A program made the position numbers and the translations under genes. Under the pieces are notes generated by a model that did not search any database, was not told the origin of the DNA, and worked only from the letters and a program-made list of their open reading frames with translations. Of a stretch of 64,000 bases of DNA, positions 14,991 through 63,711 are shown one piece after another. Origin of the DNA: Candidatus Krumholzibacteriota bacterium (GTDB lineage Bacteria; Krumholzibacteriota; Krumholzibacteriia; LZORAL124-64-63); NCBI GenBank assembly GCA_022711765.1, contig JAKLEB010000003.1, forward strand, positions 62,001 through 126,000. The letters are read 5' to 3'. Each line of letters begins with the position of its first letter. The stretch's first letter is position 1.

Positions 14991-14995
14991 CCACC

Positions 14996-16428: not shown

Positions 16429-16438
16429 AATCGTTCTG

Positions 16439-25991: not shown

Positions 25992-28900
25992 CTATTTCAA
26001 CAGCGTGACGCTTCGGGCCCGGGTGAATGCGGCCGTCGACAGGCGAACCAGGTACGTGCCGCTCGCCAGACCGCGCGCGTCCCAGCGGACCTCGTGAACG
26101 CCGGGCTGGCGCGTCTCGTCGACCAGCCGGGCGACCAGCTGTCCCTCCAGATCGTAGACGGCGAGGTCCACGTGCGTCGGCTCGGGGAGCGAGAAGCTGA
26201 ACGTCGTCGACGGATTGAACGGATTGGGGTGGTTCTTCGCGAAGGCATACCCGCGCGGCGGACCGTCTCCCGCCGGCGCGGACGTGACGTCGCCGACCGT
26301 GAACGCACCGGTCGCCACGGGCCCGCCGTTGTAGGCGCTGTCGACCGCGCGCAGCCGCCATTCGTAGGCGCCGTCCGCCAGGCCGGTCAGCAGCCACTCC
26401 GTGACCGCGCTGACGTTGCCGGGCTCCGGCAGGCGGCGCGGGATCGCGCCGGGCAGGCCGCCCCGGAGCAGCTCGAGATCGTAGGTCAGCGCAGCGCCCG
26501 GCGTGAGGTCGTCGCCGGCCGGCTGCCACGAGACCAGGACCGTGCCGGCGCCCAGCACGTCGGCCACGACCCGCGCCGGCGCCGACGGCGGGTCGTTCTG
26601 GCCCGGGACGTCGTTGCGATAGGCGTGCATCTGCGCCTCGACGAGGCCGTTGCCGCCCGGCACGAAGTACTGGCCGGCGATGAAGTAGTCGAGATCGCCG
26701 TCGCCGTCGAGGTCGAGCCAGCTGAAGGTCCCCCCGCGATCGCCGCTCGCCCGCGGCGCCGGCAGCTCGCTGCCCGAGTCGGTGAAGACCCCGCCTTCGT
26801 TCGCGTAGACCCTGGCCCGCCCCTCGATCTGGGAACCCGAGTTGTAGGTGCCCGCGAGGAGGATGTCCATGTCGCCGTCGGAGTCGTAGTCGGCCCAGGT
26901 GGCGGCGGTGAGGTCGAACCAGCCCTCGCAGGGCACGCATTCGATGACCTCCAGCGGCAGGAAGGTCTCGGCATCGTTGCGGTAGATGCGCAGCGCCTGG
27001 GTGAACGATCCGTCCAGCTCCTTGAGATGGCCGGCCACGAGGACGTCGAGGTCGCCGTCCGCGTCGTAGTCGCCCCACTGCGCCTCGCCGTGCTCGATCG
27101 TGAGGGCGCCGAGGATGTCCTCGCCGACGAAGGCGCCGCCGCCGTCGTTCCGGTAGCGGCGGATGAAGCCGTCGTCGCCGAGCGGCGCGACGTTGACGAG
27201 CAGCAGGTCGACGTCCTGGTCGCCGTCGAAGTCCGCCCACGCGCTCTGGGCGTGCGTGGTCGGCGCGAAGACCGAGTCGGTCTCGGTGAAGACGAAGTTG
27301 CCGAACTGGTCCGCCCCGTCGTTGCGCAGCAGCTTGGTGCGGAACGCGAACGCCGCGTCGTCCCACGCGGAGGGCATCAGGAGGTCCGGGTCGCCGTCGT
27401 TGTCGTAATCCGCCCAGGTGAGCGAGCGCAGATCGAAGTCGGCCTGGTCGTTGTCCTCGTAGTACGGCGGCAGGACCGTGGACGTCGGCACGAGCGCTCC
27501 GCTGTCATTGCGGTAGATCGTGGCCTGCCCGTTGCTCCCGACCGCGAGATCCTGGTCGCCGTCGCCGTCCGCGTCGCCCCAGGCGAGGTCCGACGCGCCC
27601 GCGTGGAGGCTGCCGATCGGCACGTCGATGTAGGCGAACTCCCACTCGCCGCTACCGGCCTGCCCATCGTTGCGGAACAGGACGAGGCGGTCCTCCACGC
27701 TCTCGTTGTAGACCACGTAGTAGCCGAAGACCGCGACGTCCAGGTCGCCGTCGCCGTCGTAGTCGGCCGGCGCCGTGGCGACGACCCAGAAGTCCTCGTC
27801 CTGCGGCGTCACGAAGAGCGGATCGAGCGGCGTCACCTCGGTGAAGTCGCCGAACGTACCGCCCGGACCGGGCTGGACGACGATGGCGCGCCCGGCCGAT
27901 CCCGTGTCCCCGTCGTCGTCGGTGACGGTGAGCCGCACGAGATACGTGTCGGCCGTCTCGAAAGTGTGCGTGGGATGCTGCTCGTTCGAGGTGGTGCCGT
28001 CGTCGAAATCCCAGGACCAGCTCACGATGACTCCGTCGGGGTCGCTGCTGGTGTCGGTGAAATCCACGGTGAGCCCGGACGTGACGAAGTCGAAGGACGC
28101 GTCGGGGGGCCGGTTCAGCGGCGGCGGCGGCGGGCCCGCGAAGTACTCGATGGCGCCCTGGTCGCCGACGGTCCAGGCGTCGCCGCCGGGAGTCGCGGCG
28201 ATGGCGGCGAACGAGCCGGAGCCTCCCGACCCGATCTCGAGGACGGCCCAATTCTGACCGCCGGTGGCCGAGTAGTAGGCGACGTCGTTGAACGTGCTCG
28301 CCCACAGCTCGTTCGCGCCGAGCAGGTCGATGTCGGTCAGTTGATCGGTCGCGTTCGGGGTGGGGAGGACCTCCCAGGTGGCGCCGCCGTCGTCGCTGCG
28401 CGCGGCGTAGCCGCCCCAGCCCACCGCGTAGCCAATGCTCACGTCGGAGAACTCCATGTCGTAGATCTGCACCGGGTCGCCGGGGAGATTGCCCGAGAGC
28501 CACGTCTCGCCGCCGTCCAGGGTGCGGACGTAGTTCCCGCCGACGTTCGCGGCCCAGCCGCTCTCGCCCGCGAAGTCCACGGCGACGTACACGCCGGCGA
28601 CATCGGGGACAGGCGTCCAGGAATCCCCGCCGTCGGTCGTGTGGAAGAGCGCGCCGGAACCGAAACCACTGCCGGTCACCCAGCCATCGAACAGGTCGGT
28701 GAAGTGCAGATCGCCGGCGTCGAGGCCGGGCGGTGTCGCGGCGGCCGCAGTCCACGTCGCGCCGGCGTCGGCGCTGCGATACACGCGACCTGCCGAATCG
28801 AGGACGACCACCGCCTCCGGACCCACGATCTGGACCGCGACCAGATCGAGCGTCGTGAACGCCTCGTGGAGGATCCACGGCGAGTCGCCGGTCCTGGTCA

Positions 28901-30113
28901 CGAGGGTCCCGCTCGCGCCGACGGCGATCAGATCCCCGCTCGCGAAGCGGCCGACGTCGTCGAGCGGCTGGCCGGTGCCGCTGGAGATCTGCGACCAGGA
29001 GACCCCGCCGTCGGTCGTCTTGATGACGAAGCCGGGGCCATAGCCGAAATAGCCGGTCTGGGCGTCGGCGAAGACGGGCAGCGCGCTCGTCAGGAAGCTC
29101 GGCTGCGGGCCCGGCGAACCGAACGCCAGCGTCCATGTCTGGCCCGCGTCCGGGGAGCGGAACAGGTCGCCCCCGCGATCGGCGGCAACCACGGTCTGCG
29201 GATCGAGCACGGCGAAGCCGAGCACGCCGGCCGGCATCGGCTCGCCGAGGTCGGTCCACGTCAGGCCGCCGTCGGCGGACCGCAGGATGCGGTCGTCGAA
29301 GTCCGGGAAGCCGCCCGTCCGTCCCCAGGCCAGCGCGACCTCGGCGGACACGGCCGCGAGGCGGTCGCGCCCGGCGGCCGCGGCGCCGGACGTCCAGGTC
29401 GCGCCGCCGTCGGTCGACCGCACGAACGCGTCGTCGACGATGCCGACGGCGACCGTGCCCGAGAGGAACGCGACGGCGGTCGCGGCGCCTTCGTGCACGG
29501 GGTCGAACGTGGCGCCGCCGTCGGTCGTCCGGTAGAGACCGGTCTCGGCGACGCCGAGGCCGAGCAGCGGGTCAGCGAAGGCGAAGGCGACGATGCCGGC
29601 GGGCGAGGGTTCCCAGCTGAGCCCGCCGTCGCGGCTGACGTAGCTGCCGAAGTTCCCGGTCGCGTGGCCGAAGCTCGCCGAGTGGAACCGCATGAAATAG
29701 GTCGACCCGAGGAGCGGAAGCTGGGTCCACGTGGTCCCGCCGTCGGTCGTGCGGTAGTTCTGGTTGCCGAAGACCCAGCCGAGGCTGGCGTCGAGGAAGA
29801 AGATGCCGTTCAGCGGATCCGCGAGACCGAACGGCACGGCGCGCTGGCTCCAGGTCGCGCCGCCGTCGGCCGACTCGAAGAGCGCGCCGCCGTCGTCGAA
29901 CGAGTTGTCGTCGGTGGCGACGAAGACCCGCTGCGCCGTCGGCGCCGCGACGCCGCGGATGTCGAGGTGAGTGGGAAGCGGACTCTGCGTGGTCCACTGG
30001 GCGCTGGCGGTCGACGCCAGGAGGACGAGCATCGCGGCGAGGATCGCCGGCAGGATCCACGCGGCGCGGCGTCCCCGGCGCCGAACCGGATTGTCGTAAT
30101 GCAACGCGTTCAT
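25992..30113 (-). CDS. Giant modular exoprotein: Asp-box, PKD, VCBS repeats and sorting domain
   Basis: 1373 residues. The signal peptide follows a basic lead (RRRGRRAAWILPAI...; cut near TASAQ). Residues about 40-680 hold some 13 Asp-box/YCF48-like motifs (SADGGATWSQ, TTDGGTTWTQ and similar), suggesting one or two beta-propellers. Then comes a PKD domain (SWSWDFDDGTTSNEQHPTHTF) and seven VCBS/FG-GAP-type calcium motifs (DYDGDGDLDVAVFG, DADGDGDQDLAVG and similar). An Fn3-like domain follows (TVLVSWQPAGDDL). The last 85 residues are a FlgD-like sorting domain (NHPNPFNPSTTFSFS ... GTYLVRLS ... VTLLK). I use ATG 30113, with AGGAGAAAGGA upstream. It is probably a cell-surface or released scaffold or adhesin-like protein; no enzymatic motif is seen. 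Confidence 0.85.
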   Translation of the reverse strand: MNALHYDNPVRRRGRRAAWILPAILAAMLVLLASTASAQWTTQSPLPTHLDIRGVAAPTAQRVFVATDDNSFDDGGALFESADGGATWSQRAVPFGLADPLNGIFFLDASLGWVFGNQNYRTTDGGTTWTQLPLLGSTYFMRFHSASFGHATGNFGSYVSRDGGLSWEPSPAGIVAFAFADPLLGLGVAETGLYRTTDGGATFDPVHEGAATAVAFLSGTVAVGIVDDAFVRSTDGGATWTSGAAAAGRDRLAAVSAEVALAWGRTGGFPDFDDRILRSADGGLTWTDLGEPMPAGVLGFAVLDPQTVVAADRGGDLFRSPDAGQTWTLAFGSPGPQPSFLTSALPVFADAQTGYFGYGPGFVIKTTDGGVSWSQISSGTGQPLDDVGRFASGDLIAVGASGTLVTRTGDSPWILHEAFTTLDLVAVQIVGPEAVVVLDSAGRVYRSADAGATWTAAAATPPGLDAGDLHFTDLFDGWVTGSGFGSGALFHTTDGGDSWTPVPDVAGVYVAVDFAGESGWAANVGGNYVRTLDGGETWLSGNLPGDPVQIYDMEFSDVSIGYAVGWGGYAARSDDGGATWEVLPTPNATDQLTDIDLLGANELWASTFNDVAYYSATGGQNWAVLEIGSGGSGSFAAIAATPGGDAWTVGDQGAIEYFAGPPPPPLNRPPDASFDFVTSGLTVDFTDTSSDPDGVIVSWSWDFDDGTTSNEQHPTHTFETADTYLVRLTVTDDDGDTGSAGRAIVVQPGPGGTFGDFTEVTPLDPLFVTPQDEDFWVVATAPADYDGDGDLDVAVFGYYVVYNESVEDRLVLFRNDGQAGSGEWEFAYIDVPIGSLHAGASDLAWGDADGDGDQDLAVGSNGQATIYRNDSGALVPTSTVLPPYYEDNDQADFDLRSLTWADYDNDGDPDLLMPSAWDDAAFAFRTKLLRNDGADQFGNFVFTETDSVFAPTTHAQSAWADFDGDQDVDLLLVNVAPLGDDGFIRRYRNDGGGAFVGEDILGALTIEHGEAQWGDYDADGDLDVLVAGHLKELDGSFTQALRIYRNDAETFLPLEVIECVPCEGWFDLTAATWADYDSDGDMDILLAGTYNSGSQIEGRARVYANEGGVFTDSGSELPAPRASGDRGGTFSWLDLDGDGDLDYFIAGQYFVPGGNGLVEAQMHAYRNDVPGQNDPPSAPARVVADVLGAGTVLVSWQPAGDDLTPGAALTYDLELLRGGLPGAIPRRLPEPGNVSAVTEWLLTGLADGAYEWRLRAVDSAYNGGPVATGAFTVGDVTSAPAGDGPPRGYAFAKNHPNPFNPSTTFSFSLPEPTHVDLAVYDLEGQLVARLVDETRQPGVHEVRWDARGLASGTYLVRLSTAAFTRARSVTLLK

Positions 30114-30413
30114 GATCGGGCGTCCTTTCTCCTCAGGGGTCTTCGGTTGTCTCGGGCAGCCGCGATCGAGTCCGGCGTGGTGGCAAGGGATGGCGTGCGG
30201 TGTCGAGCGACTCAACGAACTGTGAATTTCAACAGCGCGTATCGTGGCCGTCTCTAATATACACGAAATCAGTAGGCGATATAAGGGGCGAGATCCGCGC
30301 GTGCCCGGCGGGCCTCGCCGGCAACCCCGCCGGTCCCCCTGGCGACGCCGTGCCGGTTGCGCTTGGTTGCCTGATGAGGCCGAGGATCTCGAGCTTCACG
30401 AGGAGGTGTCGTC
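30114..30413. other. 300-bp divergent spacer
   Basis: It lies between the giant exoprotein gene and cfa. An AT-richer stretch around 30240-30290 (aatatacac, gatataag) probably holds both promoters. I see no gene or clear operator in it. Confidence 0.4.
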
Positions 30414-41899: not shown

Positions 41900-43924
41900 A
41901 TGCGAATGGCTAACGTCCTCATGCTCGCCGGCGCCCTGCTGCCCGCCGTGGCGATAGCGCAGGGAGAAGTCGTCAGCTGGGGCGCCGAGGTCGTGGTCAG
42001 CGACGCGGCGCTCACGAATCTGGTCGCGGTCGCGGCCGGCGGCGCGCACTGCCTCGGCCTGCACGCGGACGGGTCGATCGTGGCCTGGGGCAACGACACG
42101 AGCGGCCAGTGTGACGTCCCCGCGCCGAACGGCGGCTTCGTGGCCGTCGCGGCGGGAGTCGAGCACAGCCTGGCGCTCCGGACGGACGGATCGATCGTCG
42201 CCTGGGGCTGGAACGAGAACGGTCAGTGCGACGTGCCCGCACCCAACGGCGGCTTCGTCGCGATGGCCGCCGGCCACCGGGTCAGCCTGGGGCTCAAGGC
42301 CGACGGGACGATCGTCGCCTGGGGGAGCCACGAGTACGGCCTGTGCGACGTCCCCGAACCGAACGCCGACTTCGTGGCCATCTCGGCGCACGATTACCTC
42401 TGCCTGGGCCTGAAAGCGGACGGCAGCATCGTCGCCTGGGGTCTGAACGAATACGGCGAGGGCGACGTCCCCGAGCCCAACACCGGGTTCACGGCCATCG
42501 CGGCCGGGAAGTACCATGCACTCGGCCTGCGCCAGGACGGCTCCATCGTCGGCTGGGGCTGGAACTACTACGGCCCCTGCACGCCGCCATCTCCGAACGC
42601 GGACTTCGTGGCGATCGCCGCCGGCAACTACCACAGCCTCGGGCTCAAGAGCGACGGCACGATCGTCGCCTGGGGCGCCCAGGACAATGACGAGTGCGAC
42701 GTGCCGGAGCCCAACGGCGGTTACGTGGGGCTGGCCGCGGGCGCGTTCTTCAGCCTCGGTCTGCGGGCCGACGGCACCATGCGCGCCTGGGGCGACAACT
42801 GGTACGGCCAGTGCAACGTGCCGCCGCCCAACGACGGCTTCGTGACCGTCGCGGCCGGCGGCCACAACCTCGGGTTGCGCCTGGACGGGACGGTCGCGGC
42901 CTGGGGCCGCAACAACCGCGGCCAGTGCGATGTGCCGGCGCCCAACGCCGACTTCGCGGGCGTCGCCGCCGGCACCCTCCACAGCCTGGGACTGAAGGGC
43001 GACGGCACGATCGTAGCCTGGGGCGACGATCAGCAGGGCCAGATCGACGTTCCGATCCCCAACGCCGGATTCACCGCGGTCGCGGCCGGCGGCTACTTCA
43101 GCCTCGCGCTGCGGTCGGACGGGACGGCCGTGGCCTGGGGCTACGACTACTTCGGCGAGTGCGACGTGCCGGAGCCGACCGTGCGCTTCACGGCGATCGC
43201 CGCCGGCGCGAATCACGGCCTCGCCCTCGAGGCCGACGGCTCGGTCGTCGCCTGGGGCAGCAACTCGTACGGCGAGGGCGCGCCGCCGGCGCCGAACGGC
43301 GGCTTCGTGGCCATCGCCGCCGGAGACTTCCACAACCTCGCCCTCCGCGCGGACGGCTCGATCGTCGCCTGGGGCAGCGACCACAACGGTCAGTGCGACG
43401 TCCCCGCGCCGAACGCGTCCTTCGTCGCGATCGCCGCCGGCGGCCACCACAGCGTGGGGCTGAAGAGCAACGGATCGCTCGTCGTCTGGGGCTGGAACAT
43501 GTACGGCGAGTGCGACGTCCCCGAGCCGAACAACGGCTTCATCGCGGCCGCGGCGTCGACGTGGTACTGCGCCGGCGTGCGGATCGGCGGCAGCGTGCGG
43601 AACGAGCAGACCTGGGAACCGCAGCTGGAACCCGAGCTGCCCGGCGCGCCGGCCATGGCCGTCGTGAACCTGCCGAACCCGTTCAACCCCGCCACCGAGA
43701 TCCGTTACCAGCTCGACCGGGCACAGGACGTGACCCTGAGCATCGTCGACCTGCGCGGGCGGGTCGTCCGCGTCCTCGTCCGCGGCGTCCGGCCGGCGGG
43801 CTGGAGCGCGGTGATCTGGGACGGTCGCGACGCCGCGGGCCTGGCCGCCCCGAGCGGCGTCTACGTCGCGCGGCTCGCGGGGGAGTCGCGCGTGGCGCAC
43901 CGGCGGATGGTGCTCGTGCGGTGA
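41900..43924 (+). CDS. Secreted RCC1-like repeat protein with sorting domain
   Basis: 674 residues. GGAG precedes ATG 41900; the signal peptide is cut near AIAQG. Thirteen near-identical repeats of about 39 residues follow (xAIAAGxxHSLGLxxDGSIV + AWGxNxxGQCDVPxPNxGF), an RCC1/BLIP-II-like propeller pattern: two seven-blade propellers would need 14 blades, and a degenerate 14th (IAAAASTWYCAGVRIGG) is present. The tail is a FlgD-like sorting domain (VVNLPNPFNPATEIRYQ ... GVYVARLAGE ... VLVR). It probably binds something at the surface; no enzyme motif is seen. Confidence 0.88.
   Translation: MRMANVLMLAGALLPAVAIAQGEVVSWGAEVVVSDAALTNLVAVAAGGAHCLGLHADGSIVAWGNDTSGQCDVPAPNGGFVAVAAGVEHSLALRTDGSIVAWGWNENGQCDVPAPNGGFVAMAAGHRVSLGLKADGTIVAWGSHEYGLCDVPEPNADFVAISAHDYLCLGLKADGSIVAWGLNEYGEGDVPEPNTGFTAIAAGKYHALGLRQDGSIVGWGWNYYGPCTPPSPNADFVAIAAGNYHSLGLKSDGTIVAWGAQDNDECDVPEPNGGYVGLAAGAFFSLGLRADGTMRAWGDNWYGQCNVPPPNDGFVTVAAGGHNLGLRLDGTVAAWGRNNRGQCDVPAPNADFAGVAAGTLHSLGLKGDGTIVAWGDDQQGQIDVPIPNAGFTAVAAGGYFSLALRSDGTAVAWGYDYFGECDVPEPTVRFTAIAAGANHGLALEADGSVVAWGSNSYGEGAPPAPNGGFVAIAAGDFHNLALRADGSIVAWGSDHNGQCDVPAPNASFVAIAAGGHHSVGLKSNGSLVVWGWNMYGECDVPEPNNGFIAAAASTWYCAGVRIGGSVRNEQTWEPQLEPELPGAPAMAVVNLPNPFNPATEIRYQLDRAQDVTLSIVDLRGRVVRVLVRGVRPAGWSAVIWDGRDAAGLAAPSGVYVARLAGESRVAHRRMVLVR
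42023..43540 (+). repeat. Thirteen tandem 117-bp coding repeats
   Basis: In-frame repeats of 39 codons (the eighth has 38). Each carries AWG followed by a near-constant GQCDVPxPN. This is coding repetition within the RCC1-like gene, not a CRISPR or satellite. Confidence 0.9.
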
Positions 43925-44932: not shown

Positions 44933-45814
44933 CTACTTCACGACGGTAATCTTCGTCGTCGCGCAGGCATTCCCGGCGCTCAGGCGAGCCAGGTAGACGC
45001 CGTTGGGCAAGTTGCGCCCAGTGTTGTCGCGACTGTCGAACTGGACGCGGTGGTCACCGGCATCGAGGTCTGCGTCAAGGAGCGTGCGGATCCGACGGCC
45101 CGCGATATCGAAGATCTCGACGCGACAGTGAGCTGCGGCGGCAATCGAGAAATGGATCTCCGCTGCGCCGCCGGCAACATGACGACCGGCTGCGAGCTTC
45201 AGGCCGGAGCCTGTATCCGGACCTTCGGGCAGCTCGCGGCCGACGCCATAGATGTACCTGATTCCGGCGATATCGTCGGAATGAAGCGTCCGCTTGAGCG
45301 TCTCGCCCAGTCCCGCATATCCGTACATCGTCTTGTACCGGTCCGCATATGCGTAGAGGTCATTGAGGACCAGGAAATGGCCGAACTCGTGGGTTGCGAT
45401 ATTCTGACGGTCGTACGCCCCCGATACCCCGTTGCCCCACGGATAGTACAGGTTGAACTCCATATCGGCCTCGAGGACCCGCGAACCGGAGTACCAATAC
45501 GTCGTCGTCGCCAGCTTGCCGTTGTTGCCCCGGTTCAGGCCGCAGATGACGTTGTAACCATCGCGGCCGAGGCCTGCGTTGATCGTCCAGTTCGGCAGGA
45601 GGCGGAACCGCGAGCCGGCATTGTTCCAGGTATTGGCGGCCGCCGTCACCGAGACCGACCAGACGGGATTCCACAGGCTCACCATGTTGCGCCCGTACTT
45701 GAAGTAGCAGGTGTTCGTGTTCCACTTCCTGCCGGCGTACGAATATGCGTGGCTCAACGACGGCACCAGCAAGAGCACCATCAGGCCGAGAATCAGGATC
45801 GAGTTCTTCTTCAT
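44933..45814 (-). CDS. Matrixin-like metalloprotease with sorting domain
   Basis: A 293-residue secreted zinc protease. AGGAGG is 8 nt before ATG 45814; the signal peptide is cut near SLSHAY. The zinc motif is ATHEFGHFLVLNDLY: HExxH with Asp at the third-ligand position (HExxHxxxxxD), as in snapalysin-type metzincins, rather than His. A Met-turn (YKTMYGYAG) and the matrixin end SDDIAGIRYIYG follow. The last 75 residues form a compact FlgD-like sorting domain (CRVEIFDIAGRRIRTLLDA ... NGVYLARLSAG ... ITVVK) lacking the NPFNP box. It is 40 nt downstream of a small secreted protein gene and probably in one operon with it. Base composition is less GC-rich than neighbours. Confidence 0.88.
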   Translation of the reverse strand: MKKNSILILGLMVLLLVPSLSHAYSYAGRKWNTNTCYFKYGRNMVSLWNPVWSVSVTAAANTWNNAGSRFRLLPNWTINAGLGRDGYNVICGLNRGNNGKLATTTYWYSGSRVLEADMEFNLYYPWGNGVSGAYDRQNIATHEFGHFLVLNDLYAYADRYKTMYGYAGLGETLKRTLHSDDIAGIRYIYGVGRELPEGPDTGSGLKLAAGRHVAGGAAEIHFSIAAAAHCRVEIFDIAGRRIRTLLDADLDAGDHRVQFDSRDNTGRNLPNGVYLARLSAGNACATTKITVVK

Positions 45815-45854
45815 GACGTAGCCTCCTATCTCTAGAGCGACAAGCGCCAAAGAG

Positions 45855-47034: not shown

Positions 47035-49974
47035 ATGTCTAGAATCGCGGTCCCGCTCGTCATGGTTGCCATGGTCACGATGCTCGGAACCCTGACCGCG
47101 GCGGTCGGCGCGCGGGCGCAGGAACTGGATCCCGATCTGGTCCAGGAGCAGATCCTCGAGCTGCGCAGCCGGGGTCGCTTCGCCGAGGCGCTCGAGCTCG
47201 CTCGCGAACTGCGCGCCGGAGTCGAGACGTCCGGGGATTTCCCGGCCTATGTGGCGGGCGACGCGCGACGTCAGGTCGCGACGCTCGAGGCAATCCTCGC
47301 GCTCGACACAGACGCCCGGCGACAGGTGGCCATTGCCGACAGCCTGGACGCCGTGATCTACCAGCTCTACGACGACGAGGATTACCTTGGCGCCGCGGAG
47401 GCGGCGCGACGGCAGTTCCAGATCCGCAAGCGGTATCTCGGCGTCGACAACAAAGAGACGGCCGACGCCGCGCTCGCATTCGGGACGGTCCTCGAGGACC
47501 TGGACCGTCTCGAGGAATCGCTCGAGCTCTACTCGGTCGCCTTCGATGTCTACTCACGTACCTGCGAACCGGTCCATCGCGGTCGCGACGCCCTGCTGAA
47601 CAACATGTCGTTCCTTTACGAAAAGCTCGGACGATACGACGAGATGCTGTCGACTCTGCGCCGCTGTCTGGCTGGAGCCATCAGCCTCTACGGTGCGGAG
47701 AGCGAGGAAGTGGCGACGACCTGCAACAACCTGGGCGCACAGCTCACCGACCTCGGCCAGTACGCGGAAGCAGAGGAGATGCTGCGGCGATCCCTGAGGA
47801 TCCGCAGGGCGCTCGGCGACGGGCATGGCATCTGCCAGTCCCTGCACAACATCGCCGTGAACGACCTGAAGCAGGGACGACTCGTGGAGGCGGGCGCAGA
47901 AGGGCGACGCGCACTCGCGGTCGCCGACAGCCTCGGGCCCGTCGACGTCAGCCTGAAGGCGAGCATCCTGAACGCGCAGGCCGTGATCGCCTATCGACAG
48001 ATGCAATACGAAGCAGCCGTCGCGAGTTTCCGGAACGTCCTGGAGATGCGCCTCCAGGTCTGGCCCGAGGCGAGTTCGCCGGTCGCGCTGGCCCGGATCG
48101 ATCTGGCCAACGCGCTCGCGCACGTGAGTGCCTGGAACGAGGCTGACCGGCAGTATGCCACGGCCGACTCGATCCTGCGCATCAGCCAGGGCGACAAGAG
48201 CCCGAATGTCCTCTACAGCCTCGCCAATCAGGCGACGGCACTACGGCTCCGGGGTCGATACGAGACCGCCGCGCAGCTCTACGCCCGCGCCGCGGACGTG
48301 TACGAGGGCATCCGGCAGGAACTGGGTGGCGTCGGTCTGAACGATGACTACGCCAGCCCCTGGGCGGAGTTCGCGGCGACCTTGCGCCTCACCAGCCGGG
48401 ATTCGCTGGCCTGGCAGGCGGCGGAGACGGGACAGGGGCGCCTCGTGGCCGACGCCCTCGACCGCGGCGGCGCTGCCGCGCTGGGAACCGAGGATGCGGA
48501 CGTAGAGGCGCTCCTGAGCCAGTACCAGCGGGCGCAGGCCGCGTTCCTGGCCCTGGACAGCGACCAGGGCGACGATGAGATGTTCTCCGACACGTGGGCG
48601 GAGCTGATGCGGGTCCGCGCCGACCTGGCCGAACGCGTCCGGCAGTTGCGGACGACGACCCGACGTCAGGAACGCGAGGTTTACGGCCTGCGCCGGGTCC
48701 AGGGCGTGCTGCGACCGGACGAGGCGATCTGCGGCTGGCTCGTCGTCGACGAAGGTAAACCTACCGCGGTCGCGTGGGGATATGTCATCCGCGATTCGGG
48801 TCCGGTCTTCTGGACGCGGGCGTTACCGGTACGGAACAGACCCGAAGCAGACGACCCACCGTCGCGCTTCCGCGAGCTCGTCCGGTCAGGCGAGGATCAT
48901 GGCGCCGTGGGAGCAATCGTCTGGCGTCAGCGGATCGAGTCGCTCCTTCCCGGCCTGACGGGCGTTCGCCGGCTCATCGTCGTTCCGTCCGGAGACGTTG
49001 TTGGCGTCCCGCTCGCTGTCGTCGGTCCCGCCGGCAAGGCGACGCTGGGAGACCGGTACCTGATCTCGTACTCGCCGTCGGCAACGGTCTTCGCGAGATA
49101 CAGGGAACAGCGGGCCGCGCGACCGTCGCCGTCAACCGTCCGGCGGATCCTGGCCCTCGGCGATCCGCCGTTCAACGAGGACCAGGCGCTGTCCATGCAG
49201 TCGGAGGCGGTGGCGCGGCCATGGGACCGACGAGCACTGAACAGCGACCTGGCCAGAGATCCGACGAGCGAAGTCACGGCTCGCGATCGATCCGTTTTCT
49301 CGCACGATCCAACCGCGCTGGCCAGACTGCCGCGATTGCGCTCGAGTCGACGGGAGGCTCTCCGGCTCGGCGAGCTGGGCGCGCCCGGGTCACGCGTTCT
49401 CGTCGGGCCGGCGTGCTGCGAGGATTCGCTGAGCGTGATCGCCCACTCGACCGGGTTGGCGAGCTTCGGCCTCATCCATATCGGCACCCACGCGTTCGTG
49501 GATCCCGTCGCCCCGGAGCGTTCGTTCATGGTGCTGTCGCAGATCGGTCTGCTGGACCCGCTCGAGGCCTTGCGCGACCACGCTGATTACCGCGACGGGT
49601 TACTCACGGTCAGCGAGATCCTGAACGGATGGAGCCTGGACGCCGATCTCGTCACCGTCTCGGGCTGCGAAACCGGTCTCGGTCGCCGCGTCGCGGGCGA
49701 GGGTTACCTTGGCTTCACGAGCGCCTTCTTGCAGCGCGGCGCCTCGACCGTGCTCGTCTCGCTATGGCCGGTCGACGACCAGGCGACGTCGATCCTCTTG
49801 AAACGTTTCTACGAGCTATACCTGGGCGCCTCCAGCGCGCCGCTCGGCAAAGTCGAGTCGCTTGCCCGCGCTCAGGAGTATCTGCGGGATTACGGTCGCG
49901 AAGAGTTGGGTGTCCAGCCCTACGCCAAGCCACGGTACTGGGCGGGGTTCGTGCTGGTCGGGGAGGGAGACTGA
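47035..49974 (+). CDS. Secreted TPR-CHAT protease
   Basis: 979 residues. AAAGGA is 8 nt before ATG 47035. The signal peptide (VPLVMVAMVTMLGTLTAAVG; cut near GARAQ) predicts periplasmic or outer location. Residues about 60-520 are tetratricopeptide repeats (LNNMSFLYEKLGRYDEMLST, CNNLGAQLTDLGQYAEAEEM, LHNIAVNDLKQGRLVEAGA, LANQATALRLRGRYETAAQ). The C-terminal third is a CHAT caspase-like domain with catalytic His819 (LIHIGTHAFVD) and Cys878 (VSGCETGLGRR), plus PSGDVVGVPLAVV and QRGASTVLVSLWPVDD. Both catalytic residues are intact. It converges on an anti-sigma/sigma pair with a 60-bp gap. The substrate is unknown; the adjacent anti-sigma is an attractive candidate. Confidence 0.9.
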   Translation: MSRIAVPLVMVAMVTMLGTLTAAVGARAQELDPDLVQEQILELRSRGRFAEALELARELRAGVETSGDFPAYVAGDARRQVATLEAILALDTDARRQVAIADSLDAVIYQLYDDEDYLGAAEAARRQFQIRKRYLGVDNKETADAALAFGTVLEDLDRLEESLELYSVAFDVYSRTCEPVHRGRDALLNNMSFLYEKLGRYDEMLSTLRRCLAGAISLYGAESEEVATTCNNLGAQLTDLGQYAEAEEMLRRSLRIRRALGDGHGICQSLHNIAVNDLKQGRLVEAGAEGRRALAVADSLGPVDVSLKASILNAQAVIAYRQMQYEAAVASFRNVLEMRLQVWPEASSPVALARIDLANALAHVSAWNEADRQYATADSILRISQGDKSPNVLYSLANQATALRLRGRYETAAQLYARAADVYEGIRQELGGVGLNDDYASPWAEFAATLRLTSRDSLAWQAAETGQGRLVADALDRGGAAALGTEDADVEALLSQYQRAQAAFLALDSDQGDDEMFSDTWAELMRVRADLAERVRQLRTTTRRQEREVYGLRRVQGVLRPDEAICGWLVVDEGKPTAVAWGYVIRDSGPVFWTRALPVRNRPEADDPPSRFRELVRSGEDHGAVGAIVWRQRIESLLPGLTGVRRLIVVPSGDVVGVPLAVVGPAGKATLGDRYLISYSPSATVFARYREQRAARPSPSTVRRILALGDPPFNEDQALSMQSEAVARPWDRRALNSDLARDPTSEVTARDRSVFSHDPTALARLPRLRSSRREALRLGELGAPGSRVLVGPACCEDSLSVIAHSTGLASFGLIHIGTHAFVDPVAPERSFMVLSQIGLLDPLEALRDHADYRDGLLTVSEILNGWSLDADLVTVSGCETGLGRRVAGEGYLGFTSAFLQRGASTVLVSLWPVDDQATSILLKRFYELYLGASSAPLGKVESLARAQEYLRDYGREELGVQPYAKPRYWAGFVLVGEGD

Positions 49975-50034
49975 AGTCGGAACGACCGGGATTCGCGACC
50001 TGGAGCGGCGATTTCGCGCTGGACCTCGCGGGGG

Positions 50035-50988
50035 TCAGCGGGCGCTGACCGCGAAGCGGCTGCGGCAGGTCAGATCGTCCAGTCGCGTCGAATCGGCGCT
50101 CACGGGGACGAACGTGAGTTCGTAGCGACCGGGGACGAGCAAGGAAGCGTCCACGAGCAGCGCGGGATAGGCGAGATCGGCCCGCACCGGCCGGAAACGC
50201 CGGTTCTCGGCCAGGTAGACGAGGGGCTGGACGTCGCCGAGTGGCCCGATCCGGTCGAGGGTGGTCTCGAACCAGAGCACGTGGCTGGGATCGACCGGTT
50301 GCTCGACGACCAGTTCCGTCTGCGCGCCGTCGACCTGCGCCGGGACGGCCTGGAATGCATTGCTCCCGATCCCGCGATCCGACCGCTCCGTCGCCAGCAT
50401 GACGAGTTCCACCGGCAAGCCCGGGATGGGACTCGCCTTCTTACCATCGCCGGCCGGGTGCGGGAGCAACACGAAGCCGAGCACGGCGGCCGTGGCCAGC
50501 GCATAGCCGACGCCAGGCCGCCAGAGCCAGTCCATCAGCGTCGCGCCGGTGCGCTGCCACCAGCCACCCGCGCCGTTCGGTCTCGCTCCGACCGGTTCCG
50601 TCTCGCGCCGCCCGCCCGCCGGTTCGCCAATCCCGGAAGAGCGGGCATCGCTAGGGCGGAGTGCTCTTTTCGCGCTGGCGATCAGGTCGGTCAGCGGCAC
50701 CTGGACCGCGTCCAGCCGACGCTTGAGGCCGGGGTCACGGAGATCCTGCCCGGCGCGCAGGTACTCGAGCATCTCCTCGGCGAAGGTCCGCGAGTACAGC
50801 ATGGCCCGACGGATCTCGGCCTCCTGGTCGCCGGTCGCGTGACCGACGAGGTAGGCGCGGATCGACGCCGCGGACGGTCGTTTCGACGCCTCGAGATCGG
50901 GCGCCAGGGCCGCTGCGAGGAGGCGTTTCAGAACGGCGTCCTGCCGCGCCTCGTCGCCGGGTGATGGTCGGTCATCGTGCACGGCCAT
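50035..50988 (-). CDS. Membrane anti-sigma-like protein without zinc finger
   Basis: 317 residues. The N-terminal 110 residues are helical (KRPSAASIRAYLVGHATGDQ, RTFAEEMLEYLRAGQD) and look like an anti-sigma domain lacking the H-x3-C-x2-C zinc ligands. A Pro/Gly/Arg linker and one transmembrane helix (GVGYALATAAVLGFVLLP) follow. The roughly 140-residue outer part is beta-rich and acidic (ELVVEQPVDPSHVLWFETTL, LLVPGRYELTFVPVS), as in DUF-type sensor domains. It starts 16 nt after the ECF sigma stop, so the two form an operon. The outer domain is accessible to the secreted CHAT protease encoded next door. Confidence 0.7.
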   Translation of the reverse strand: MAVHDDRPSPGDEARQDAVLKRLLAAALAPDLEASKRPSAASIRAYLVGHATGDQEAEIRRAMLYSRTFAEEMLEYLRAGQDLRDPGLKRRLDAVQVPLTDLIASAKRALRPSDARSSGIGEPAGGRRETEPVGARPNGAGGWWQRTGATLMDWLWRPGVGYALATAAVLGFVLLPHPAGDGKKASPIPGLPVELVMLATERSDRGIGSNAFQAVPAQVDGAQTELVVEQPVDPSHVLWFETTLDRIGPLGDVQPLVYLAENRRFRPVRADLAYPALLVDASLLVPGRYELTFVPVSADSTRLDDLTCRSRFAVSAR

Positions 50989-51004
50989 GCTCCTTGTACG
51001 ATCG

Positions 51005-51619
51005 TCAGAGATCGAGGTCCGACGGATCGATCCCGTGCTCGCGGAGGCGCCGGATCAGCGCGATGCGGCAGTTGCGATACCGGTTTCCCACGTCGGCGTT
51101 TCGGTCCGCCGGCTCGCCGAGCAAGAGCGTGATCTCCTGGTTCGTGAACTCGTAGAGGAGACGCCAGACGAGGAGTTCCCTGCATTGGCGATTCTCGGTC
51201 GAGAGGATGATGGCCCGGACCCGCTCGGCGAACACGGCAGCGACAGGGTCGGGCGTGCCCGTCGGCACTTCAGGCAGGTCTTCGACCTGGACCTCCCGGT
51301 TTCCCTTCTTGAGGATATCCCTGGCCTTGTTGTTCGCCACGGTGCGGAACCAGCCGAGAAACGGCCTACCGTCGTCTTCGTACAGACGCAGGCGTCGGAA
51401 ACCGTCGGCCACGAGGGAGAGCAGGACCTCGCAGGCGAGATCGTGGCGACGATTCTCCTCGAAGTACCGGAAGGCTCCTGGCGGCGACACCATGAGATGC
51501 CGGTAGCCAATATCCATGAAGACGTGCAGCGCGCGGTCGGGATCGCGGTCGATTTCGCCGAGGATCGAGGGACTGGACTGGCCCCAGTCGTCCAGGGAAC
51601 CGGAATCAGCCATGGGCAT
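51005..51619 (-). CDS. RNA polymerase sigma factor, ECF family
   Basis: A 204-residue ECF sigma factor. GGGAG is 6 nt before ATG 51619 (a second ATG follows two codons on). Region 2 is DLACEVLLSLVADGFRRLRL ... GRPFLGWFRTVANNKARDIL, a helix for -10 recognition. Region 4 is LVWRLLYEFTNQEITLLLGE ... DVGNRYRNCRIALIRRLRE, with a variant recognition helix. The linker is rich in Pro and Val. It is followed by its likely anti-sigma gene. The target promoters are not evident here. Confidence 0.85.
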   Translation of the reverse strand: MPMADSGSLDDWGQSSPSILGEIDRDPDRALHVFMDIGYRHLMVSPPGAFRYFEENRRHDLACEVLLSLVADGFRRLRLYEDDGRPFLGWFRTVANNKARDILKKGNREVQVEDLPEVPTGTPDPVAAVFAERVRAIILSTENRQCRELLVWRLLYEFTNQEITLLLGEPADRNADVGNRYRNCRIALIRRLREHGIDPSDLDL

Positions 51620-57991: not shown

Positions 57992-58575
57992 GGCTCGTAC
58001 TGCCTCGCGACTTCGGACGGGCGCCGCTCGATCCGCTCGACGAGCTGGGCGGGTCCGTGAAGAGAGACGGTACCACACGATGAGGGACCCATCAACGCGG
58101 GATCAACTAACGAGGGGACAACGCCATTCGGATCTCAGGTCGCTCATCCCGTATACAATCCGTGCCCCATCGTCGAACCTGACGCTGTAGGGTTATTCTT
58201 TCACGACGCACATATCAATCATCCACGGCGTGAATAGTCGAGCACCCTGTCCTCGCGGATTGCTCAGCGCAGGACGGAGAGGGAGCGGGTCTGGACCGTG
58301 TCGTTCCTCTCCAGGCGGACGATGTAGGGAGCGAGAGTTTGGGGGCGGGTGGGAACCGTTACGACCGATCATGCGAAGCCAGCCTGATTGTGAACCTGCT
58401 TGATCGAAAAAGACCTGCGTAGTAGCATCCACCGGTAGACTGTTGATCGGCCCGTGACCTTGGCCGAACTCGGCCTAGTATTTCGACAGTTTTTGACCTG
58501 AACCGGCCGCGACGTAAAGGGAGAGCGTCTCGCGGTACCCTCGGCGTCGGAGCCGGTTCCACAAGGATGGACGCG
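57992..58575. other. 584-bp spacer before the RHS gene
   Basis: Lower GC than the nuclease genes. It holds the sorting-tail remnant (58264-58368) and otherwise no intact gene; the region 58370-58500 is AT-richer and may contain the RHS promoter. Confidence 0.4.
58264..58368 (-). pseudogene. Remnant of a FlgD-like C-terminal sorting tail
   Basis: A 34-codon minus-strand frame between two stop codons reads TVPTRPQTLAPYIVRLERND then TVQTRSLSVLR and a stop. PYIVRLERNDTVQTR...VLR is a good match to the last strands of the sorting domain (GVYLVRL..G....R.VLVR) seen in intact genes of this window. The upstream part is lost, so this is probably the end of a deleted exoprotein gene. Confidence 0.55.
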
Positions 58576-61500
58576 ATGCATAACCCTATCGGTACTGTCC
58601 CTCGACAGCCTTTTTTCCGTTCTTGCCCCAGTCAACGAAGCAAGTGGGCCGCGGTTCTGGTGGTGCTCGGCCTTTGCGCCACATGCGCGACGGTCGCTTC
58701 GGCTGACGTCATTTACGGGTATTACAATATCGCGCAGCCCGACGGCGTCATCCCGGACGGGGAGCACCGCTCATGGTATGCGCCAGTCACCAATGCCCCT
58801 GCCTACGCCCATGCGACGATGGTAGAGGCCCGATTCGGCTATACAGCGTACAACGGGGTCGAAGATTGCATCACGGTGCGGTTCATGAAAAACCAAGATC
58901 CCGGCACCACCCTGGGCACACGGATCGTGGCACCGGGGACGCTTCCGGCCGGCAACCCTGGGACGTCCCCCTGGTATTCGGTATTCGAGGGACTGGGGGA
59001 CCAGCCGGATGGCAATTACTGGTTCTCGTTCATCGTGGCCAGCGGGTGCGCCTACGATCCGACGATCCACTGGGTGGAGGTCCGCATCACCTACGATGTT
59101 TATCAACCCGACATCAATCTGAGCACCTACAATGTATCGGCGGATGTCGTCCAGGGTGCGGTCCTGACGCGGACCGTGCAGGTGTGGAACGTGGGCGATG
59201 CTCCGCTCGACGTCATAGGGTTCTCTGCGGCGTACATCTCGCCGTTGTCGCCCGCGTGGATCGTAAATGTGACGCCGTCGTCCATGTCCGTCTTTCCTGG
59301 CAGCTACCAGACCCTGTTCTTCGACTTGAACGCCGCCGGATTGCCGCTGGGCCCCCGCGAAGCGCGAATGTACGTCTACTCGAACGATCCGGACGAGGAA
59401 ACCATCTATTTTACGGTAAACATGAATGTTGTCTCGTCCGCCGACCCCCACGTGTCGTCAGAAAGCGGTGAGCGCGGCGACACCCTGTCCCAACCCGGCT
59501 GGGGTTTCACTCCCTACGGCACGGCCGAGCTGCATTTCCGGCGCCCAGACGGCAGTTTATCGCCCACTACCACCGAAGCTGTGGTCGGCGACGGGACCTA
59601 TGCCCACTACTGGACGGTGACCCAGGACGCGCAGTTGGGCACGTACCAATATTGGGCGGTGGACCTGGCTTCGGGGCTGACCAGCCCAGAGGTGTCGTAT
59701 TCGGTCAGCGGGGGCGTGCTGGATCTGCTGACGCCCGCTCAGGGAGTCAGCGTCACGACGGACCAAGTCCCATTCTCGTGGACCGACACAGGCGCTGATT
59801 ACTACGAGCTGTGGATCGACGACGACGCCTCGTTCGCCTCACCGGTCGTCAGCCCGCAGCATCTCCAACCCATGGACCTCGATCAACTGCACGTCACCTC
59901 CCTGGATTGGGGCAAGAACTGGTTCCCTCTCGGAGTTCTGTACTGGAAGGTTCGCGCCAGCACCGGAGGTACCTACGTAGAAACCTCGACGCGCTCCTTC
60001 ACGTACGCGCCCACACTGGCTGCCGAAGCGGCCTGGGATCCGCTCTACCGCCTGTACAAACCGACCACGAAGGATCACTTCTACTGCACCAGCTTTGGCC
60101 ACCAGCAACTGGCCCAGGATTCGGGATATCAGGACGAAGGCGTTGAGGGGCACCTGTCAACGCAACGTCATGTAGATCCGGATCTCGCTCCGATCTACCG
60201 CCTGTGGGACGACGGCCGCGACTGCCACTACTACACGAGTGACTTCGTCGAATGCGACGCCTTGATCGCCACGGGCACGTACGTTTACGAAGGCATCACG
60301 GGCTACGGCATCGACACCCCGCGGGAAGGATGGATGCCGCTGTACGGCCTGCGTCTGGACGACGGTGGTCGCAGGGACAACTTCTACACCACCAGCGAGT
60401 TCGAGCGCCAGAATGCGATCGACGCGTGGGGCTTCACCTATCTCGGGATCCTGGCCTACGTCTCGCCGTCGGGCAACCTGGGCGCAATGGCCTGGAGTGG
60501 CATGGGCGTGACCGCAGGCCGGGGTGTAAGCACGGACAACGGAAACTTCAAGCACTACGAGACCACGTCGTTCGACATTCCGGGCAACGGCCTGCCCTTG
60601 CGTTTCTCGCACCAGTACAATTCGCTAGCCGTGTTCTATCCGACTGAGGTTCGCAGCCTGGGGGTGGGCTGGACCCACGAATACAGTTCGTGCATCACGG
60701 AGGGCGGTGGACTGTACCGGGTGTATTGGGCCGATGGGTCGATCCACGTTTATGACGCTGCTACGGGCGACTGTCTCGTAGAGGGTGTCTACGACGATCT
60801 GACCACGGAGACCGCCGACCGTGTCACGATCAAGAAGAAGGACCAGATCATCTACCGGTTCGAGCGTCCGGCCGCGGGCTACCCCCTGTTCCTGACGGAG
60901 ATCCGCGACCGCAACGGCAACACCGTGACGTGCACCTACGAAACATCGTCGTTGCGTCGGTTGCTGCGCGTGACTGGTCCGGCAGGGCGTCAACTCACGT
61001 TCGCGTATCGCACGGAATCCGGCTACGAGGAACTTGTGAGTTCGGTGACCGATCCAGCCGGGCGCCAGATCCAGTTCGCCTATGCTGACTCGACCAGCGA
61101 TCTCACGGGCTACACGGACCCGGAAGGACACACGACCACTTACAGCTACGAGCGGCCAGGAACCGAGGACCATCGGCTGGCGACGATCACGCAACCGGAC
61201 GGCACATCGATTACCAACACCTTCGCGGATCGCAAGCTGAGATCCCAGTACTGGAGTGGGCAGTCGGGTGGCATGACGGTTGACTACGCTGGCAACGTCG
61301 CCACGGTGGACTACAGCGGGACGAGCGCAACAGGGTTCAGCGTGGAATACTATCCGGCCGCCGATTCGTGGCAGGCTCCGAAGCCTCACTACATCTCCAG
61401 CGGTGGCGACCAGGCCGCGTTACTTTTCGACAATCCGACGCACCCGGCACTGCCGTCGGGCATGGTGGATCCACGCGGCAACTACCACGGCTACTTTTAT

Positions 61501-63711
61501 GACGCTGCCGGGAACATGATTGAAGAATCTCACCCTCTCGGCGCGGTCTACCAGTATACCTACAATCAGTTCAATGACGTGACCACCATTCGTGACCCTC
61601 TCTCGCACACTACGTCGTACGGCTACGATGCCAGCGGGAACCTTACCTCTGTCACAGAGCCAGGTGGTCACACTACTACCCTCGGGCGCGACGCGTTCGG
61701 CCGATTGACGTCGGCGAGCAACTACACTGGGACCTTTGGCTATCAGTACGACGGCTACGGCAACCTGGTACGAGTCACGGACCCGATGGGGCATGCCACG
61801 ATCATCGACGTCGATCTAGTCGGCCGCGTGCAGTCGGTAACCAACGCCAACGGGCAACTCACGTCGTACACGACGGACGACCGGGGCCTGATCACCTCGG
61901 TCCAGGACGCAGGCGGCGGCGTCATGAGCGTGAGCTACGATGCGGCCGGCCGGATGACCGGCGCCAGCGGCCCGGGGCCGGCGGCTACGGCCTGCGGCTA
62001 CACCGGCGGGCTGCTGTCCAGCTACGCCACGCCCGGCTGCGCGACGACCTACCTGCACAACGGCGACGGTTCGGTTGCCTCGCGGACCCGGCCCCTGGGA
62101 ACGACCGCGTACGCGTACGACGAGGCCGGCAACCTGACCGGAATCGACGCGGTCACCTTGTCGCGTGACGCCGCCGGCAATATGCTCGGCACCTCGGGCT
62201 CCGGCTGCGATCTGACCATGGCCTACGATGCGCTGAACCGCCTGACGTCCACCACCGACGTATGGGGGAACACCGTCGCCTTCGAGTACGACGCGGTCGG
62301 CAACACCACGCGCATCACCTACGGACCGGGCCGCGCGGTCGACTACACCTACGATTCTGACGACCGACTCCTGACGGTCACGGACTGGAACGGACGCACG
62401 GTGTCCTACACCTACCGGCCGGACGGGCTGGCGAGCACGGTCACCCGGCCCAACGGGACGACCACGGCTTACTCCTACGACGGCGCCGGGCGGTTGGACG
62501 GGATCACCCACTCTGGGCCTGGCGGAACCTTGGCAAGCTACATCTACGGTCTCGACGCCCTTGGCAACATCACCTCGGCGACCGTGACCGGCCCGTTGGG
62601 GTTGCCGGAGCTGGTTACCGCGAGCCGATCCGCCACCGTCAACACCAATAACCAAGTGACGGCTATCACCGGTACGACCTTCGGCTACGACGGGAACGGC
62701 AACGTCACGACCATGAGTGGCGAGCGAAACCTGAACTTGACGTACGACGAGGAAAACCGACTGACGACCGTCAACGGTGACGTCAGCGCCGCCTATGTTT
62801 ACGATGTGTTCGGCAACCGGCGGCAGCGCACGGTGGACGGGGTCGCGACGCGGTATGTGCTAGATCCGAGGGGCTTGAGTCGGGTCCTGTATGAGACGGA
62901 TTCAGGCGGAACTCCCATAGCGTACTACATCTGGGGCCTCAGGCTGGAGTCGCGGGTCAGACCCGATGGGACCACGCACTACTATCATGGCGACAACATC
63001 GGCACTGTGGTTGCCATGACTGATGGAGCGGGCGTAGTTTCCCATCAGTATTCCTATGATCCTGACGGAATTATCGTGAGTGAGTCTGAAGCCGATCAAA
63101 ATTCCTACACTTTCGTGGGGTGTATGGGGGTTTCGCGCGACGCGTCCGGATTGTATTTTATGCGGGCGCGATATTACGACCCGGCCTGGGGACGGTTCCT
63201 CGGAGAAGATCCAATTTGGAGTTCCAACCTTTATACCTACGCAAGGAACAATCCGGTCATGTGGGTCGACCCTACTGGCTTGTTCTCGTGGAACTCGTTT
63301 TGGGATGACACGAAGGATGTCGGCTCAATCGTGTGGAACGAAATCGAGCGGTCTGCCGTCGATCCAATCGTCGAGGCATCGTCCGAAGGCCTGATCGAGA
63401 CCATGTGGGCGCAGGCGCAGTCCGTACCACGGGCGCTCAAGGGAGGCGTCAGGGGAGCTATCCAGGCCAATGTCCATGCGCGCGTATGGTCCCAGGAAAC
63501 CGCCGACAGGCTGAAGATGGTGTCGGATACATCAATCGACATATACGAACTTTCTCACGGGCTGAAGGATCTTGTCTCCAATGGCAAGGGGTTTGGCAGC
63601 TTTAAATTCGACGGATCCGTGTACGAAACGGGCTACACTCTCTTCTATTCTCGCGATGCCGTCTCATGGACGGCGAAGTTCGCCTATTTCGTCAGTCAGT
63701 TCGCCCGGTGA
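58576..63711 (+). CDS. Secreted RHS/YD-repeat protein
   Basis: About 1711 residues. AAGGA is 8 nt before ATG 58576 (an ATG 9 nt earlier lacks a ribosome site). The signal peptide is cut near TVASAD. Residues 50-480 are beta domains. Residues about 490-640 hold three repeats with the DUF5648-like pattern YRLYKPTTKDHFYCTSFGHQ. Then comes an entry domain (NGLPLRFSHQYNSLA), many YD repeats (YDAAGNMIEESHPLGAVYQY and others), and the RHS core end LYFMRARYYDPAWGRFLGED ... NLYTYARNNPVMWVDPTGL. After PTGL a unique 142-residue tail (63283-63708) is helical and less GC-rich, the place where polymorphic toxins carry their toxin domain; I recognise no toxin fold in it. Confidence 0.93.
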   Translation: MHNPIGTVPRQPFFRSCPSQRSKWAAVLVVLGLCATCATVASADVIYGYYNIAQPDGVIPDGEHRSWYAPVTNAPAYAHATMVEARFGYTAYNGVEDCITVRFMKNQDPGTTLGTRIVAPGTLPAGNPGTSPWYSVFEGLGDQPDGNYWFSFIVASGCAYDPTIHWVEVRITYDVYQPDINLSTYNVSADVVQGAVLTRTVQVWNVGDAPLDVIGFSAAYISPLSPAWIVNVTPSSMSVFPGSYQTLFFDLNAAGLPLGPREARMYVYSNDPDEETIYFTVNMNVVSSADPHVSSESGERGDTLSQPGWGFTPYGTAELHFRRPDGSLSPTTTEAVVGDGTYAHYWTVTQDAQLGTYQYWAVDLASGLTSPEVSYSVSGGVLDLLTPAQGVSVTTDQVPFSWTDTGADYYELWIDDDASFASPVVSPQHLQPMDLDQLHVTSLDWGKNWFPLGVLYWKVRASTGGTYVETSTRSFTYAPTLAAEAAWDPLYRLYKPTTKDHFYCTSFGHQQLAQDSGYQDEGVEGHLSTQRHVDPDLAPIYRLWDDGRDCHYYTSDFVECDALIATGTYVYEGITGYGIDTPREGWMPLYGLRLDDGGRRDNFYTTSEFERQNAIDAWGFTYLGILAYVSPSGNLGAMAWSGMGVTAGRGVSTDNGNFKHYETTSFDIPGNGLPLRFSHQYNSLAVFYPTEVRSLGVGWTHEYSSCITEGGGLYRVYWADGSIHVYDAATGDCLVEGVYDDLTTETADRVTIKKKDQIIYRFERPAAGYPLFLTEIRDRNGNTVTCTYETSSLRRLLRVTGPAGRQLTFAYRTESGYEELVSSVTDPAGRQIQFAYADSTSDLTGYTDPEGHTTTYSYERPGTEDHRLATITQPDGTSITNTFADRKLRSQYWSGQSGGMTVDYAGNVATVDYSGTSATGFSVEYYPAADSWQAPKPHYISSGGDQAALLFDNPTHPALPSGMVDPRGNYHGYFYDAAGNMIEESHPLGAVYQYTYNQFNDVTTIRDPLSHTTSYGYDASGNLTSVTEPGGHTTTLGRDAFGRLTSASNYTGTFGYQYDGYGNLVRVTDPMGHATIIDVDLVGRVQSVTNANGQLTSYTTDDRGLITSVQDAGGGVMSVSYDAAGRMTGASGPGPAATACGYTGGLLSSYATPGCATTYLHNGDGSVASRTRPLGTTAYAYDEAGNLTGIDAVTLSRDAAGNMLGTSGSGCDLTMAYDALNRLTSTTDVWGNTVAFEYDAVGNTTRITYGPGRAVDYTYDSDDRLLTVTDWNGRTVSYTYRPDGLASTVTRPNGTTTAYSYDGAGRLDGITHSGPGGTLASYIYGLDALGNITSATVTGPLGLPELVTASRSATVNTNNQVTAITGTTFGYDGNGNVTTMSGERNLNLTYDEENRLTTVNGDVSAAYVYDVFGNRRQRTVDGVATRYVLDPRGLSRVLYETDSGGTPIAYYIWGLRLESRVRPDGTTHYYHGDNIGTVVAMTDGAGVVSHQYSYDPDGIIVSESEADQNSYTFVGCMGVSRDASGLYFMRARYYDPAWGRFLGEDPIWSSNLYTYARNNPVMWVDPTGLFSWNSFWDDTKDVGSIVWNEIERSAVDPIVEASSEGLIETMWAQAQSVPRALKGGVRGAIQANVHARVWSQETADRLKMVSDTSIDIYELSHGLKDLVSNGKGFGSFKFDGSVYETGYTLFYSRDAVSWTAKFAYFVSQFAR

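Follow-up and report, generated by a model that had tools for sequence, protein, structure and literature searches.

We analyzed a stretch of 64,000 nucleotides (here called the window) from a Candidatus Krumholzibacteriota bacterium (GenBank assembly GCA_022711765.1, contig JAKLEB010000003.1, positions 62,001 to 126,000). The genome, from a phylum of the FCB group, is 3.96 Mb in four contigs. Three adjacent genes between positions 47035 and 51619 of the window encode a secreted protein with tetratricopeptide repeats (TPRs) and a CHAT peptidase domain, an extracytoplasmic function (ECF) sigma factor and a membrane anti-sigma factor. A first-pass annotation had described the TPR-CHAT protein, with intact His819 and Cys878, as converging over 60 bp on the sigma/anti-sigma operon, and had proposed that the three genes form a protease-triggered transcription switch. 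We confirmed the coordinates, domains and residues, and below we weigh the proposed switch.

The TPR-CHAT gene (47035..49974, + strand, as are all of its features) encodes 979 aa. Its frame begins with an ATG at 47035, just downstream from a ribosome-binding AAAGGA, and ends at 49974. The protein matched the Pfam CHAT family PF12770 (8.5e-47; 160.4 bits compared to a curated cut-off of 24) and TPR_12 (3e-29, in four stretches). As read from the sequence, the protein starts with a classical signal peptide (residues 1-28, MSRIAVPLVMVAMVTMLGTLTAAVGARA; 47035..47118) that ends in ARA-Q, with the cleavage site inferred, and the AlphaFold2 model has a hydrophobic helix at residues 6-26. A TPR-like helical array (residues 33-541; 47131..48657), assigned from the Pfam TPR families and from helix pairs in the model, is followed by the CHAT caspase-like peptidase domain (residues 631-977; 48925..49965). 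The predicted catalytic residues, His819 (IHIGTHA; 49489..49491) and Cys878 (VSGCETG; 49666..49668), were invariant in 87 of 87 aligned CHATs.

The AlphaFold2 model of the window CHAT protein (mean predicted local distance difference test score, pLDDT, 85.8; predicted template modeling score 0.83) had as its best matches among solved folds Csx29, as present in the Cas7-11 complex (8eey, E 8e-15), and the separase of humans (E about 1e-12). In addition, a CHAT-only profile retrieved Csx29/TPR-CHAT and separase chains by sequence. By its PF12770 score and its His/Cys dyad, the window protein is a separase-like CHAT peptidase with predicted proteolytic activity.

The other two genes form an operon on the opposite strand (51619-50035, - strand). 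The sigma gene is first, the anti-sigma gene begins 16 bp on, and the stop codon of the latter is 60 bp from that of the convergent CHAT gene. The sigma factor (51005..51619, 204 aa) had NCBIfam matches from 1.2e-7 (the ShbA model) to 3e-4 (sigma70-ECF, below cut-off). Its Pfam region 2 match was also under the cut-off (14.2 vs 24 bits); that of its homologue at locus L125 of another genome (see below) exceeded it (24.5 bits). A local ECF profile matched the window sigma factor at 2e-32, with the window protein itself in the seed set. Judged by its predicted regions 2 and 4 and no region 3, it is an ECF sigma factor, and a divergent one. A second ECF sigma gene in the window (9335-9886, + strand) is canonical (Sigma70_r2 7.8e-19, r4_2 6.7e-17); it lies directly 3' of apparent ABC-transporter genes (5373-9301) and has no CHAT gene nearby.

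The anti-sigma factor (50035..50988, - strand, 317 aa) had no Pfam or NCBIfam family match, and was recognized from its place after the sigma gene, its L125 homologue and an AlphaFold2 model. It had been described as a single-pass membrane protein without zinc ligands, and this description held: there is one hydrophobic helix (residues 158-176; 50461..50517; hydropathy and a helix in the model), and the HxxxCxxC motif of the zinc-binding anti-sigma (ZAS) subgroup is absent from both the window protein and its L125 homologue. A predicted cytoplasmic helical domain (residues 10-110; 50659..50961) is modeled with helices at 10-27, 40-47, 53-65, 67-80 and 86-110; this five-helix bundle had a pLDDT of about 83-91 over residues 11-80, compared to a whole-model mean of 66.6. 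Beyond the membrane helix, strands in the model form a predicted periplasmic beta-sandwich (residues 194-314; 50047..50409), a hypothetical protease target or sensor. A fold search of the PDB with the anti-sigma model gave generic beta-sandwiches only, with low TM scores. A likeness of the outer domain to those of Acidobacteria-type CHAT-linked anti-sigmas was weak and was rejected (6 of 2000 shuffles scored equally high). As modeled, the protein fits a class I membrane anti-sigma factor, with an N-terminal helical domain for putative sigma binding and a membrane helix.

We found that CHAT genes of the phylum frequently adjoin ECF genes. A PF12770 search of 38 related genomes detected CHAT genes in 33. 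We sampled 60 CHAT stretches (L065-L124) and five other CHAT loci of the window genome (L009-L013), fetched blind to sigma genes, and ran the local ECF profile, built on loci from this analysis, against all frames. The first-pass annotation had tied its proposal to a neighborhood conserved in relatives and to a CHAT protein that leaves the cytoplasm, and we found both. An ECF gene lay within 2 kb of 45 of the 66 CHAT genes, and the association extended to several other phyla; the window CHAT protein has an export signal, and 74 of 84 classifiable ECF-linked CHATs have a signal-like N-terminus. The density of ECF genes fell from 0.298/kb at 0-1 kb from the CHAT gene to 0.062 at 1-2 kb, and then to 0.008 at 2-4 kb, an internal control by distance that is independent of genome-wide counts. 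Genomes of 4 Mb contain about 20 Sigma70_r2 genes by Pfam, and the excess of ECF genes next to CHATs was about 40-fold across the phylum. Of the five further CHAT genes in the window genome, three (L009, L010 and L012) also adjoin an ECF gene.

The orientation of the genes varied. In the phylum, 23 layouts were divergent and 5 convergent; of the co-directional ones, the CHAT gene came first in 15 and the sigma gene in 14. L110, L154 and L182 share the convergent layout of the window. Particular types of trio were kept across orientations, for example in L071, L058 and L085, or in L056, L055 and L110; L056 and L058 are operons in the order sigma, anti-sigma, CHAT. The neighborhood of CHAT, ECF sigma and anti-sigma genes is non-random; gene order varies and the trio persists. 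When ten CHAT-linked sigma genes were checked with Pfam, eight had a sigma-70 region match (E < 0.01), often below the curated cut-off, and two (L110 and L202) had none. These CHAT-linked ECF factors are divergent, and this may explain their poor annotation.

The gene directly after the sigma gene usually encodes 200-330 aa; the product has a single membrane helix, near residue 80-160, which leaves about 100-200 aa on the far side. We listed 56 such anti-sigma-type proteins linked to CHATs, one of which (L190) is atypical. HxxxCxxC is present in most of those of the phylum and absent from the proteins of the window, L125, L009, L067 and L057. Their outer domains are diverse by eye (beta-sandwich, fibronectin-like or TPR-like), and Pfam confirmed the TPR-like type for the L009 and L056 proteins (TPR_16, TPR_19). 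No protein was found that joins an anti-sigma to a CHAT domain; the sole zinc-motif match, in L201, falls in a signal region. At six other loci (L097, L099, L103, L112, L118 and L120), the ECF gene near the CHAT gene is followed by one for a protein of 540-612 aa instead of a small anti-sigma; these proteins mostly have one membrane helix near residue 330-400 and are possibly of the kinase type.

Twenty CHATs, 13 of them ECF-linked, continue from the peptidase domain straight into a C-terminal membrane helix with a basic tail (loci include L058, L071, L073, L085, L087, L094, L104, L175 and L182). The window CHAT protein lacks this feature. It is predicted to be an inner-membrane anchor, which would keep the active site on the periplasmic side of that membrane, next to the anti-sigma factor. 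Separately, the TPR-CHAT gene at L046 (6141-8943) is split across several frames, with one in-frame TAG, and is either a broken gene or a sequencing error.

The association is not confined to one phylum. Among 80 named loci picked by CHAT motifs alone from a scan of genome contigs, an ECF gene lay within 2 kb of the CHAT gene in 14 of 35 loci from Acidobacteriota, 3 of 5 from Aminicenantes, 2 of 3 from Deltaproteobacteria, 2 of 6 from Planctomycetota, 1 of 5 from Bacteroidota, and in single loci from Balneolaceae and Lysobacterales. None of the 10 cyanobacterial loci had one. Operons in the order sigma, single-pass anti-sigma, CHAT were present in Holophagales (L143), Terriglobia (L160) and Lysobacterales (L197). 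Mapped on a tree built from 182 CHAT domains, linkage to an ECF gene switched state at least 21 times when changes on well supported branches were counted. Therefore, the linkage of CHAT and ECF genes has been gained or lost many times.

Among 80 genomes of the phylum searched, one other (G054) had a homologue of the window anti-sigma, at locus L125. (An apparent homologue in G027, at L008, was a false match; that frame holds no such gene.) The genes at L125 are on one strand in the order sigma (8917-9648), anti-sigma (9772-10779), CHAT (10838-14056) and CHAT (14105-17266). The sigma factor is 29% identical to that of the window (1e-18). The cytoplasmic parts of the two anti-sigmas are 33% identical over 105 aa, and the outer parts are not alignable.

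Our preferred reading, held tentatively and with a little less than even confidence, is that the three genes of the window form an envelope signaling unit of a recurrent kind in which the CHAT protein cuts the outer part of the anti-sigma and thereby frees the sigma factor. The cytoplasmic helical domain of the anti-sigma would hold the sigma factor. The periplasmic TPR array would respond to a partner, and the CHAT domain would then make a site-1-type cut in the periplasmic part of the anti-sigma. An RseP-type intramembrane protease and cytoplasmic proteases would complete its degradation, and the freed sigma factor would switch on its target genes. An RseP-type (M50) protease is encoded in the window genome (G000:C1:790099). 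Cleavage is plausible and consistent with the predicted topology, the intact dyad, the periplasmic domains of the anti-sigmas and the membrane-anchored CHATs of one subfamily. The genes, their domains, the dyad, the export signal and the recurrence of the trio are observations; that this anti-sigma is the substrate of the CHAT protein is what we infer.

Several findings weigh against cleavage of the anti-sigma by the CHAT protein. At four loci (L048, L049, L051 and L054), a gene for a secreted CHAT comes immediately after the sigma gene and no anti-sigma gene was found, so there would be no membrane target there for a periplasmic protease. Two of these (L048 and L049) belong to the window CHAT's own small branch of the CHAT tree. 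In the same tree, the CHATs nearest to that of the window by path (L126, L127 and L052) have no ECF neighbor. The layout of the window is convergent, so the CHAT gene and the operon have no shared transcript. The CHATs of L125 belong to a different branch than the window CHAT (26% identity); based on these comparisons, the window-type sigma/anti-sigma pair keeps company with CHATs, though not with one orthologous CHAT. Lastly, partial Mantel tests correlated CHAT similarity with the periplasmic domain (0.21, p 0.001) and equally with the sigma factor (0.20), which indicates co-inheritance, and we rejected specific coevolution of CHATs and outer domains. Of the protease-triggered switch proposed at first, the conserved trio and the export of the CHAT protein stood; the cleavage claim is weakened by the loci without an anti-sigma, at which the CHAT protein looks like a product of the sigma factor. 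As a separate observation, at the loci of the closest CHATs, L126 (4139-12051, a tandem of two CHATs) and L127 (7743-12260), the next gene encodes a secreted protein (about 300-330 aa), and that of L127 matches fn3 weakly.

The main alternative, which is possible though we rate it below probable, is that the CHAT protein is the output of the system. The sigma/anti-sigma pair would then sense envelope stress in another way, through a DegS-like protease or a ligand, and the CHAT protein, induced by the sigma factor, would act on foreign or misfolded surface proteins. The four loci with sigma then CHAT and no detected anti-sigma favor this explanation, as do the numerous CHATs that have no ECF neighbor. 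ECF sigma factors often control neighboring genes, and 52 of the 57 layouts, being divergent or co-directional, would suit shared control. However, a reading of 16 intergenic regions by eye, a weak test, showed no promoter motif in common, and a subfamily of membrane-anchored CHATs beside membrane anti-sigmas fits a role upstream of the sigma factor better.

We think it unlikely that the CHAT protein is a co-sensor that does not cleave the anti-sigma, in which the TPR array would bind the outer domain or a ligand and so hold or release the anti-sigma; the target of the peptidase would then be the CHAT protein itself or some other protein. The TPR-like outer domains of several CHAT-linked anti-sigmas (L009, L056) are in keeping with this, and the PDB search also matched DdvA, a transmembrane anti-sigma. 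In contrast, the dyad is kept in all of the CHATs aligned, and therefore catalysis is under selection. It is still less likely, indeed improbable, that the window genes are unrelated neighbors converging by chance: convergence is the rarest layout and the closest CHATs have no ECF linkage, but the excess of ECF genes beside CHATs across the phylum and the homologous sigma/anti-sigma pair that adjoins CHATs at L125 argue against coincidence.

The cleavage reading has parallels in known systems. In type III-E CRISPR (Craspase), Csx29 cuts Csx30, the inhibitor of CASP-sigma (PMC10028731). The likeness to the window lies in the pairing of a TPR-CHAT peptidase and an ECF-like sigma factor with an inhibitor that is cut or, in the window, would be cut. 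Csx29 is cytoplasmic and is activated by RNA binding of Cas7-11, whereas the window CHAT is exported and the inhibitor is a membrane protein. Five window proteins scanned with PADLOC gave no convincing match, and Pfam recognized no cas gene in a sample of the flanking genes; no genome-wide search for Cas7-11 was made. The Lon-type protease CalpL of a type III CRISPR system cuts the anti-sigma CalpT and frees the ECF sigma factor CalpS (PMC11417357, PMC11229360), a convergent logic, although CalpL is cytoplasmic and has a SAVED sensor. In Escherichia coli (RseA/DegS/RseP; cited in PMC10028731), a single-pass anti-sigma likewise receives a periplasmic site-1 cut, and an RseP-type protease is shared with the window genome; DegS, unlike the CHAT cysteine peptidase, is a PDZ serine protease. 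DdvA (PDB 8rw5, 8rot) has a fold that aligns with the window TPR-CHAT model (Foldseek E 2e-12), probably through helical repeats, and is one protein rather than a trio. We rejected DdvA as a CHAT-containing anti-sigma because its sequence profile gives no CHAT match.

A further precedent is ECF group ECF54, which has conserved neighbors with CHAT, subtilase or carboxypeptidase domains and for which proteolytic control, without an anti-sigma, was already proposed (PMC8999054, section 3.3). The window resembles ECF54 in having an ECF sigma gene with a CHAT-domain neighbor, and differs in that an anti-sigma gene is present, as it is in most CHAT-ECF loci. (The arrangement at L048, L049, L051 and L054, sigma then secreted TPR-CHAT, is ECF54-like.) Control of ECF sigma factors by CHAT proteins has thus been proposed earlier, and the trio with an exported CHAT and a membrane anti-sigma is a variant on it. 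A full-text literature search for 'CHAT domain' and 'anti-sigma' gave the Csx29 paper alone, and it is possible that the ECF reclassification had already listed CHAT neighbors for groups linked to an anti-sigma.

Other genes of the window encode a large RHS-repeat protein with DUF5648 (58567-63711, + strand), followed by a further RHS-like frame from 63726, and a secreted RCC1-repeat protein with a FlgD_ig tail (41900-43924, + strand). This tail recurs at 44933-45817 (a matrixin-like protein) and at 25992-30215.

Bacterial CHAT and other caspase-like peptidases are mostly without known function, and the pairing described here gives dozens of exported CHAT peptidases a concrete partner. It is conceivable, though somewhat doubtful, that these loci represent a widespread class of CRISPR-independent switches acting across the envelope, with members in Krumholzibacteriota, Acidobacteriota, Aminicenantes, Deltaproteobacteria and other taxa. 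An exported CHAT protein of the caspase/separase type would be the site-1 protease of the membrane anti-sigma, and the CRISPR Csx29/Csx30/sigma module might have been recruited from such a context. On this view, CHAT proteins would be a new class of protease in signaling by anti-sigma proteolysis, and the CRISPR cascade of Csx29, Csx30 and sigma would belong to a wider family of protease-sigma switches that extends beyond CRISPR.

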